A program made the position numbers and the translations under genes. From Candidatus Gastranaerophilales bacterium (GTDB lineage: Bacteria; Cyanobacteriota; Vampirovibrionia; Gastranaerophilales; Gastranaerophilaceae), in the NCBI GenBank assembly GCA_944326635.1, contig CALVEU010000007.1:1-34301 (forward strand): a DNA stretch of 34,301 nt, read 5' to 3'. Below are positions 7,333 to 31,320 of the stretch, one piece after another; positions within the stretch are counted from its first letter, which is position 1; each line of letters opens with the position of its first letter. The notes beneath the pieces were generated by a model. It ran no database searches and was not told where the DNA came from. It saw only the letters and a program-made list of their open reading frames with translations.

Positions 7333-7347
7333 ATAAATAAATAATAT

Positions 7348-7421
7348 CGGGACGTGGCGCAGCTTGGTAGCGTGCTACCTTGGGGTGGTAGAGGTCGCAG
7401 GTTCAAATCCTGTCGTTCCGA
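7348..7421 (+). tRNA. tRNA-Pro(GGG)
   Basis: Complete cloverleaf of 74 bases: acceptor CGGGACG / CGTTCCG (one G-T wobble), D arm with AGCTTGGTA, anticodon stem CTACC / GGTAG around loop TTGGGGT giving anticodon GGG, T arm with GGTTCAAATCC, discriminator A. CCA is not encoded. It reads Pro codons CCC/CCU. Confidence 0.92.
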
Positions 7422-7482
7422 TTTTATTATTATTAATTACACTAAAACAATTGTATATTCTAATAAACTATTCTAATAATAT

Positions 7483-7556
7483 CGGGATGTAGCGCAGTCT
7501 GGTAGCGCACCGTGTTCGGGACGCGGGGGCCGCAAGTTCGAATCTTGTCATCCCGA
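7483..7556 (+). tRNA. tRNA-Pro(CGG)
   Basis: Complete cloverleaf of 74 bases: acceptor CGGGATG / CATCCCG, D arm AGTCTGGTA, anticodon stem CCGTG / CGCGG (one T-G) around loop TTCGGGA giving anticodon CGG, T arm with AGTTCGAATCT, discriminator A, CCA not encoded. It reads the Pro codon CCG. It follows the GGG isoacceptor by 61 bases and probably arose from the same duplication. Confidence 0.92.
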
Positions 7557-7624
7557 TTTTTTACAATTACTTAAAATATCAGAACAAATAGCAAATATTA
7601 TATTTTAGAGATTTTACAATAAAT

Positions 7625-20021: not shown

Positions 20022-20068
20022 AAGAAGAAGGAGAACATCAATGATTAATGACAAGAAGCTAAAAATTG

Positions 20069-20078
20069 CCCCCCCCCC
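20069..20078 (+). repeat. C10 homopolymer, candidate phase-variation switch of pseudopilin 5
   Basis: Ten consecutive C in an AT-rich region, ten codons into a frame that begins at ATG 20041 with a good Shine-Dalgarno (AAGAAGGAG). With ten C that frame ends at TAA 20092-20094 after 17 codons. With eleven C it stays open and joins the pseudopilin frame at 20151. The local string GCTAAAAATTG-C10-G closely matches the one at 31229-31248. Confidence 0.7.
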
Positions 20079-20115: not shown

Positions 20116-20144
20116 TTTACTTTTTTAACAAAATAATAGATAAT
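20116..20144 (+). promoter_or_regulatory. Possible internal promoter giving a leaderless start for pseudopilin 5
   Basis: -35 TTTACT (20116-20121), 17-base spacer, -10 GATAAT (20139-20144), six bases, then ATG 20151. Same geometry as the other leaderless candidates but with weaker hexamers. It would allow some synthesis regardless of the C tract. Confidence 0.35.
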
Positions 20145-20150
20145 AGTGAT

Positions 20151-20882
20151 ATGGAACTTCACTATAAAAAATTAGCTTTTACATTAGCAGAAACACTTAT
20201 TACGATAGGAATTATCGGGATCGTTGCATCAATGACTCTTCCATCTCTTATTCAAGACCATAGAGAAAAAGAAACTGTTGCAAAATTAAAAAAAATTAAC
20301 TCTATATTAAGTCAAGCACTTGTCAGCGCTATAGATGAAAGTGGAACAACAGTCGATCAATGGAATTTAGAAGGTGGAGATTCAAAAAATGGTTCACAAT
20401 ATTTAGTTGATAATTATTTCAAACCTTATTTCAAAATAGCCGATAATTGTATAAATTTAAGAAATTGTATTGGCAACAAAAAATACAAATATTTAAACGG
20501 CAAAGAACATATAGCATACGCTGGTCAAAATAGTTACAAACATTTAGTATTAGCTGATGGAACTTTATTAATTTTTCACATTTCTCCTGGATTTAAAAAT
20601 TGCCCTCAAAAAGGAAATTGTGCTGAAATATTTGTAGATACAAATGGATATTACAGAGGTCCAAATCAGTTCGGCAGAGATTATTTTGTATTTTCAATGA
20701 AAAAAGAAAAAATTATTCCATACGGGACAAAAAAAGATTTTCCAAACTTTTCAACCCATTGTAATAAAACCAAAGGTACAGGATACGGTCTAAGTTGCGG
20801 TGCTTGGGTAATCCAAAATGAAAACATGGATTATTTACACTGCGACGATCTTGATTGGGACAAAAAAATAAGATGTAAATAA
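20151..20882 (+). CDS. Pseudopilin / prepilin-like protein, probably phase-variable (pseudopilin 5)
   Basis: 243 residues from ATG 20151: leader M-E-L-H-Y-K-K-L-A|F-T-L-A-E-T-L-I-T-I-G-I-I-G-I-V-A-S (Ala instead of Gly at -1), then a soluble domain with Y-F-K-P-Y-F-K, Cys pairs, D-T-N-G-Y-Y-R-G-P-N-Q-F-G-R-D-Y-F-V-F and a C-terminal Cys-rich tail (C-G-A-W-V-I-Q-N-E-N-M-D-Y-L-H-C) shared with pseudopilin 6. No Shine-Dalgarno stands before this ATG. A well-formed start at 20041 lies 110 bases upstream; adding one C to the C10 tract between them would fuse them without any stop, extending the leader by 37 residues. As written the upstream start is off-frame. Confidence 0.85.
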   Translation: MELHYKKLAFTLAETLITIGIIGIVASMTLPSLIQDHREKETVAKLKKINSILSQALVSAIDESGTTVDQWNLEGGDSKNGSQYLVDNYFKPYFKIADNCINLRNCIGNKKYKYLNGKEHIAYAGQNSYKHLVLADGTLLIFHISPGFKNCPQKGNCAEIFVDTNGYYRGPNQFGRDYFVFSMKKEKIIPYGTKKDFPNFSTHCNKTKGTGYGLSCGAWVIQNENMDYLHCDDLDWDKKIRCK

Positions 20883-30390: not shown

Positions 30391-31206
30391 TTATTCAAAA
30401 TTATATATTTTATTACAATAACTTTGACTTCCATTCACACACTTTATATAATCCATATTTTCTTTATACAAAACCCAAGCAGTACATCCAGACCCATTAT
30501 ACCAACCAGAATGAGAATCAGCATTTGGGGCACATGATAATGTACTTTCAGAATGAGTATCTAAAGCTCCTCTTGGAATAATCTTATTTTTATTTACATG
30601 AAAAGTAAAAGTATCAACTCCCCAACGATTTGGCAACCTATCCCCATTTATATCTGCAATAATATTAAAGCAATAATCTAAATAAACACATCCTGAAGTT
30701 AATTGTTGTTGATCCTGAATACCAAAACCAATAACAATGCCATCTTCCATTATTAGACCTTGATTTGAAGTTATTTTATCTACGGTTTTATTTCTCAAAT
30801 CCTTTCTATTACTACTTACAAAACATTTTTTTGAAGAAAATTTTGAACAAACAGTAACACCTTTAATATATTTAGAAAAATATTCTGTTAATATTTCAGA
30901 ATAATTTTCTTTAGTTAACCCCCAATTTGTTGGATCTCCATATTCTTCTAATATTAAAGTATAAGCATTTGATATAGTAGAATATGTTTTTTTTAATCTT
31001 ACAACTGTCTCTTTTTCCCTTTGATTTGCAATCAATGCTGGTATTGTCATTGCAGCAACAACTCCAATTATTCCTAAAGTTATTAGTACCTCTGCTAACG
31101 TAAATCCAAATCTGTCATTGCGAGACTTTTGTCGAAGAAATCCAGCTTTTGGGGTTAATAATAGGCTAGATTCTTTCGTGGATTCCCCCTCAGAATGACT
31201 ATACAT
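30391..31206 (-). CDS. Pseudopilin / prepilin-like protein, probably phase-variable, with repeat-encoded leader (pseudopilin 6)
   Basis: 271 residues from ATG 31206. The processing site D-R-F-G|F-T-L-A-E-V-L-I-T-L-G-I-I-G-V-V-A-A lies 33 residues in, much later than usual; the leader before it is translated from an 86-bp REP-like palindrome (31114-31199). The body has Cys pairs, D-I-N-G-D-R-L-P-N-R-W-G-V-D-T-F-T-F and a tail like that of pseudopilin 5 (C-T-A-W-V-L-Y-K-E-N-M-D-Y-I-K-C). ATG 31206 has no good Shine-Dalgarno. ATG 31268 does (GAAGGGAGCGAAAT), but a G10 tract puts it off-frame: ten G ends in TAG after 12 codons, eleven G would read through to this ORF. Confidence 0.85.
   Translation of the reverse strand: MYSHSEGESTKESSLLLTPKAGFLRQKSRNDRFGFTLAEVLITLGIIGVVAAMTIPALIANQREKETVVRLKKTYSTISNAYTLILEEYGDPTNWGLTKENYSEILTEYFSKYIKGVTVCSKFSSKKCFVSSNRKDLRNKTVDKITSNQGLIMEDGIVIGFGIQDQQQLTSGCVYLDYCFNIIADINGDRLPNRWGVDTFTFHVNKNKIIPRGALDTHSESTLSCAPNADSHSGWYNGSGCTAWVLYKENMDYIKCVNGSQSYCNKIYNFE
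31114..31199. repeat. 86-bp REP-like palindrome inside the pseudopilin 6 leader
   Basis: The ends GTCATTGCGAG (from 31114) and CTCAGAATGAC (to 31199) are inverted copies, nine of eleven bases matching, and both arms continue with related AATCCAGC / GCTAGATT and GAAGAAAT / ATTCTTTC strings. The same units occur at 3542-3673. It carries no stop in the pseudopilin frame and encodes about 29 leader residues. Confidence 0.75.
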
Positions 31207-31237
31207 GCTACCAACTTGTGAAGTAAGCGCTAAATTG

Positions 31238-31247
31238 CCCCCCCCCC
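31238..31247 (-). repeat. G10 homopolymer, candidate phase-variation switch of pseudopilin 6
   Basis: Ten G on the coding (minus) strand, seven codons after ATG 31268, which has a Shine-Dalgarno AGGGAG. With ten G the peptide M-K-K-F-K-K-G-G-G-G-A-I ends at TAG (31230-31232). With eleven G the frame continues ...G-N-L-A-L-T-S-Q-V-G-S-M-Y-S... into the pseudopilin. On the plus strand the flank GCTAAATTG-C10-G matches the tract at 20069-20078. Confidence 0.7.
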
Positions 31248-31320
31248 GCCTTTCTTAAATTTTTTCATATTTCGCTCCCTTCTTTAATTGTTATAATTAT
31301 AAAGAATTTCTTACATAAAT

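Follow-up and report, generated by a model that had tools for sequence, protein, structure and literature searches.

Why should a gene for a pilin-like protein lie one base out of frame with the start codon that a Shine-Dalgarno (SD) sequence precedes? The question is raised by a locus on the minus strand of positions 1 to 34,301 of contig CALVEU010000007.1 (Candidatus Gastranaerophilales bacterium, an uncultured inhabitant of the gut, GenBank assembly GCA_944326635.1), a stretch of 34,301 nucleotides referred to here as the window. Direct reading places an SD sequence, GAAGGGAG, at 31275..31282, followed by ATG 31268 with the leader codons ATG...GGC (MKKFKKG, 31248..31268), a tract of ten G (G10, 31238..31247; gaagggagcgaaatATGaaaaaatttaagaaaggcGGGGGGGGGGcaatttagcgc together with the sequence around the ATG) and, two codons past the tract, a TAG (31230..31232). 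The frame from this start through G10, MKKFKKGGGGAI-stop, encodes M K K F K K G G G G A I before the stop, exactly as the initial annotation had described it; with an eleventh G it would, as was likewise predicted there, cross a 44-codon linker without a stop and fuse with the downstream prepilin open reading frame (ORF), giving 292 amino acids in total. No SD sequence is visible before the ATG at 31206 with which the ORF itself begins. We consider it likely that the tract is a switch, that is, that slipped-strand phase variation acts on a pilin repertoire in which ten bases are the default OFF setting and eleven the ON setting.

The product at stake is well delimited. The linker (31105..31237, minus strand), open in the eleven-G frame, would form part of a cleaved prepilin leader, and the mature pilin-like protein (30391..31104, minus strand) runs from the F of G/FTLAEVLITLG to the stop, with the PF07963 prepilin motif at the junction. 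Both PF07963 (N_methyl, E=4e-6) and TIGR02532 (above cut-off) recognize the window protein, which carries the prepilin signal of G or A, then F, E at +5, and a hydrophobic helix; the two profile matches place it among the prepilin-like proteins. A structure model of moderate confidence shows a long N-terminal helix plus a beta domain, its best Foldseek match being the pilin FimA (weak, E=0.15), and a prepilin peptidase gene is present in the same genome (PF01478 above cut-off). A role of these proteins at the surface or in adhesion may be presumed; they could be subunits of a pilus, adhesins, or the pseudopilins of a secretion system. The linker also holds a translated dispersed repeat (SHSEGE...RQKSRND; nucleotides GTCATTCTGAG...CGACAAAAGTCTCGCAATGAC), found in frame within the leader in the window (31100-31200) and at loci L049, L058, L112, and L380, and linkers related to that of the window occur at L049, L058, and L380. 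The leaders of another genome, G016, which reach up to about 150 codons, likewise look repeat-derived.

The same logic recurs within the window. On the plus strand, ATG 20041 with the leader MINDKKLKI (20041..20068) precedes a C10 tract (20069..20078), which is a G10 tract on the minus strand and thus lies on the same strand as the first; eleven bases are again needed to reach the mature pilin-like protein (20178..20882, plus strand), as the initial annotation had noted for this paralogue. It had counted the two loci as independent cases, of which the shared phase stands and full independence does not, the two being paralogues that share tract-flanking DNA. The tract at 20069 is also ten bases long in the sister species. 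The OFF state of this second locus is less certain, because an alternative start without an SD sequence lies at 20151 behind a -10-like box. Many linkers (L018, L019, L042, L048, L065; window 20130-20153) contain TTGNNN-16/17-TATAAT followed by AGTGATATG or AGTGATATA, and such a promoter-like element inside the leader could provide an SD-less start in some genes.

Is the shared phase accidental? The genome of origin (G000; 1.84 Mb, 149 contigs) contains about 74 such tracts. A run-length census of 471 kb (31% guanine plus cytosine; stretches chosen around tracts) returned five runs of 6, none of 7, one of 8, one of 9, 65 of exactly 10, seven of 11, and one of 13. Seventy loci parse as start, tract, and prepilin, with ATGAAAAGATTTAAAAATGTC as the family consensus for the leader: 62 have ten bases and need one more, one has ten bases yet is in frame via a compensating two-base difference, one has nine bases, and six have eleven and are in frame, which is how a switched-on locus should look. 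Extending the set to four genomes (G000, G004, G007, and G016) yields 204 parsed pilin loci, 191 of them with a ten-base tract, and here 183 need one more base, five are in frame, and three need two. Against an expectation of 1/3 this corresponds to a binomial p of about 1e-75, a value that overstates independence because paralogues share ancestry. The tract, moreover, occupies all three codon registers, and length differences 5' of it are balanced 3' of it; it is therefore the total phase and not the local sequence that is preserved, and simple copying does not account for such compensation across leader types. Chance, already judged unlikely in the initial annotation, is excluded as the source of the shared phase both by these counts and by the 62 of 63 ten-base loci in the genome of origin. 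Runs of at least seven G or C within reading frames, far above chance, and a one-base change that separates an intact from a truncated product are the marks of a contingency locus, and both are found here.

The region behind the tract is just as telling. In 168 loci the linkers between tract and prepilin motif (6,579 codons; fewer than 15 codons each in 67 loci) contain a single stop in the pilin frame as opposed to 502 and 599 in the other two. The in-frame pilin product is thus under selection. That the OFF pilins are dead or decaying genes held only by duplication is accordingly very improbable: most loci are indeed OFF by recorded length, and at one (L049) the frame is broken, but linker and pilin frames are open almost everywhere, the phase is preserved across species, and both the substitutions and the indels that distinguish the linker of the window locus from that of its sister locus (L380) preserve the frame.

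Tracts in other genes serve as a control. Within non-pilin genes of G000, G004, and G016, G10 tracts are in frame at ten bases in 14 of 15 cases, so that the contrast in phase between the two classes (183 to 5 for pilins, 1 to 14 for the others) is highly significant (Fisher p about 1e-16): a tract of ten bases leaves pilins OFF but most other genes ON. These tracts also bear on the suspicion that the true pilin tracts have eleven bases and were under-called by one during sequencing or assembly, an artefact that would fit the very uniform recorded length of ten over many assemblies. Under-calling by one base would break all non-pilin frames, and the recorded lengths are therefore trustworthy; the in-frame tracts come from the same assemblies and include one in a gene that has a ten-base tract in seven species, lengths of 9, 11, 12, 13, 16, and 26 were recorded as well, and the parsed G11 loci of the genome of origin are in frame. 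We regard the artefact as hardly credible. The gene in question is about 1000 codons long (L189:1901 onward; L311, L312, L314, L315, L320, L327) and has an in-frame ten-base C tract near its start; tractless orthologues of it occur in other species.

Does the tract length actually change? A sister species (G007; 8 contigs), 91.7% identical to the genome of origin at one locus, allows the comparison of orthologues that the initial annotation had called for. At the position orthologous to the window locus (L380, contig C4) the start upstream of the tract is retained, as are the tract itself and its phase, with GAAAGGAG in the place of the SD sequence. Across 40 orthologous tracts, 34 pairs are 10/10, five are 11/10, and one is 9/10 (genome of origin versus G007), and in four of the five 11/10 pairs the pilin is ON in the former and one base short in the latter. 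These six differences in 40 are between-species variation and not proof of rapid switching. The fifth 11/10 locus (L049 3970, contig C64) is a decaying member of the family in which a stop and, further on, a frameshift disrupt the frame behind G11. Contig ends at tracts were considered as a sign of length mixtures and discarded, the inspected shared ends being paralogous or overlapping sequence.

The sister species reveals a second kind of change. Of 39 positional orthologues, 10 have pilin bodies with no more than 50% identity despite an upstream flank of 84-98% identity, while 23 of the 39 bodies are at least 80% identical. The window locus itself belongs to the former group: compared with L380, its upstream region is 96% identical and its body 30%, with leader and tract kept. 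These sequence comparisons suggest that pilin bodies may be exchanged behind constant leaders. As a separate observation, the short post-tract linkers of L021/L022 (G000, contig C6) and L354/L355 (G007, contig C2) were apparently swapped between the species, and the second pilin body of this pair is 97% identical despite the linker swap.

What, then, fixes the orientation of the tracts? Of the pairs of adjacent tracts on a contig (G000, G004, G007, G016), 201 share a strand and 4 do not; in G007 the strand changes only twice inside contigs, which is what an origin and a terminus would produce. In most regions the strand that bears the tracts has a positive GC skew, a hint that it is the leading one; among shorter G runs the strand bias is only weak. 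The coding sense varies, 146 of the 204 pilin loci being G-coding and 58 C-coding, and tract orientation is thus set by the replichore and not by the coding strand. The base on either side of the tract is C in most tracts of all gene classes (G000, G004, G016). One might see in the tract chiefly a polar element of recombination or replication with a secondary effect on the frame, diversity being generated by the exchange of gene bodies behind constant leaders, and the strict replichore polarity, the C conserved at either end of the tract in pilin genes and most others, and the ten replaced bodies, that of the window locus included, would agree with this. Such an element does not account, however, for the single base missing from 183 of 191 pilin tracts when the tracts of non-pilin genes are in frame; moreover, the alignment of most exchanged pairs extends 68-214 nucleotides past the tract, so that the breakpoints need not be at the tract. 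We consider this account improbable. A combined one, which we would entertain only tentatively, is a replication-polar C-G10-C element that occupies one strand per replichore and is actively held at ten bases, acting both as a slip switch with a default set by gene class and as a focus for the exchange of pilin leaders and bodies.

Alternatively, G10 might itself be the working state, with RNA polymerase or the ribosome slipping at the tract such that a fixed minority of products is in frame and pilins are made constitutively at a low level. The length of ten and the +1 phase vary less here than length and phase do in known switch families, and a clear constraint acts on the downstream frame although nearly all loci are OFF by their DNA; both points speak for such expression-level slippage. 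Against it, an analysis of simple stem-loops in the 60 nucleotides downstream of the tract revealed no excess folding (mean z of 0.02 for G and 0.34 for C tracts), and thus no stimulatory structure of the kind that marks programmed -1 ribosomal frameshifting. C10 and G10 loci, furthermore, need the same shift, and since CCC runs usually favour +1 ribosomal shifts, the direction is wrong for the C10 loci. Five orthologous loci are G11 in one species, where slippage during expression is unnecessary, and G10 lies in frame inside long non-pilin genes, where it would only cost product. Finally, that G- and C-coding tracts behave alike and that the tract strand tracks replication rather than the coding strand points to a process at the DNA level. 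Taken together, this renders expression-level slippage doubtful. A hairpin between the SD sequence and a post-tract anti-SD motif (AGGAGC with AGCTCC) was considered as well and rejected, as pairing within loci is no better than after re-dealing the motifs among loci and as AGCTCC stays with the tract in C-coding loci. Elsewhere in the window, tandem tRNA-Pro genes with the anticodons GGG and CGG lie at 7347-7557.

How far does the arrangement extend? Our survey covered 38 relatives besides the genome of origin, 23 from the same genus and 15 from outside. At least three G10 tracts were found in 21 of the 23 congeners (up to 126 per genome) and none in two, while genomes outside the genus have at most three each. 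Summed over the 24 genomes of the genus, there are about 1079 G10, 115 G9, 108 G11, and 40 G8 tracts, with nearly equal shoulders at G9 and G11. Public genome contigs yielded one 38% relative, a Candidatus Gastranaerophilales metagenome-assembled genome, and 25 pattern matches in a virus collection included none with a pilin locus. Tractless pilins with a normal start beside the cleavage site, which the initial annotation had named as evidence that would speak against a switch, were encountered only in G021, a species of the same genus with many pilins and hardly any tracts, where 12 of the 16 pilins examined have an ordinary SD sequence and ATG beside the cleavage site; it looks like a species without the system rather than a refutation. 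G002 (loci L160-L179) deviates in another manner, with tracts of 9-26 bases in different flanks; its ten parsed pilins all have the G run on the coding strand. Its tracts also occur in genes that resemble glycan-synthesis genes by eye, and the species appears closer to a classical phasome.

According to the slipped-strand switch that we favour, translation would start at the SD sequence and ATG 5' of the tract. With ten bases the ribosome would stop two codons past the tract (main G-type) or up to about ten codons past it (some C-type), and no pilin would be made; replication slippage that adds one base would carry the frame across the linker to the prepilin. The whole leader would then be removed by prepilin peptidase, so that the glycines or prolines encoded by the tract would be absent from the mature protein. 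As this default-OFF setting would be common to about 70 loci of the genome of origin, with comparable numbers in many genomes of the genus, reversible switching would conceivably result in a population of cells that each express a few of many pilin-like surface proteins.

Several observations weigh against this reading, the main weakness being the uniformity of tract length: both members are G10 in 34 of 40 orthologue pairs, and G016 contains 82 G10 tracts but not one G11. Such uniformity fits two accounts, namely that G10 is the mode of a mutational equilibrium in each population or that G10 is the functional state. Only 13 of the 204 parsed pilin loci (about 6%) are ON by recorded length, and G10 itself could be the working state. 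Mismatch repair is missing from some organisms with homopolymer switches, yet MutS1 is present in the genome of origin and nearly all genomes of the genus; loss of mismatch repair was accordingly dismissed as a cause, and also as the reason for the long tracts of G002, which likewise has MutS_I. Switching is, in addition, something that we infer from assembled genomes. As to the window locus, the slippage proposed for it in the initial annotation is supported by the length differences in the family, whereas its own tract is G10 in both species.

Comparison with known systems helps to put these points into perspective. In the PhasomeIt survey of the Campylobacter poly-G/C phasome, tracts of nine (53%) and ten bases (26%) made up 79% of all, demonstrating that narrow length spectra do occur in true switch families (PMC6321876). 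Switching rates near 1e-3 per division have been reported for such tracts (PMC4965091). As in Campylobacter, an AT-rich genome here contains tens of poly-G/C tracts, mostly in reading frames, where a change of one base alters the frame (PMC6321876). Unlike there, 58 of 204 pilin loci have C on the coding strand, lengths are almost all ten, about 6% of the pilin loci are ON, and the targets belong mainly to one pilin family. Neisseria combines repeat-based on/off switching of paralogous surface proteins with the exchange of pilin segments between loci (pilE/pilS), and both aspects resemble the present case; here, however, about 70 separate pilin genes each have their own start and tract, nothing points to a single expression locus accompanied by silent copies, and one run of ten G lacks the four runs of a G-quadruplex motif. 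Programmed transcriptional slippage and -1 frameshifting also rely on a homopolymer and release the product only after a +1-nucleotide or -1-frame event. The family shares with them the run of identical bases and a product that depends on a frame event, but differs in that downstream structure is lacking, G and C runs have the same phase, and the length of the DNA changes between orthologues. The near-exact length, the opposite default phase by gene class, and the replichore-set orientation are unusual features, and no report of phase variation in Gastranaerophilales was found in the literature searched.

If the switch is real, the genomes of one genus of gut Gastranaerophilales contain as many as about 120 G10 switches each, most of the examined ones preceding pilin-like proteins and almost all of them set to OFF. 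In genome annotation, most of these pilins would be broken or given a wrong start. That the pilins share one default phase, reversed in non-pilin genes, would make the evolutionary tuning of the resting state of contingency loci directly testable, and the replichore polarity would tie repeat maintenance to replication. The arrangement that recurs across the genus has the look of an extensive repertoire of surface proteins, most of them switched off.
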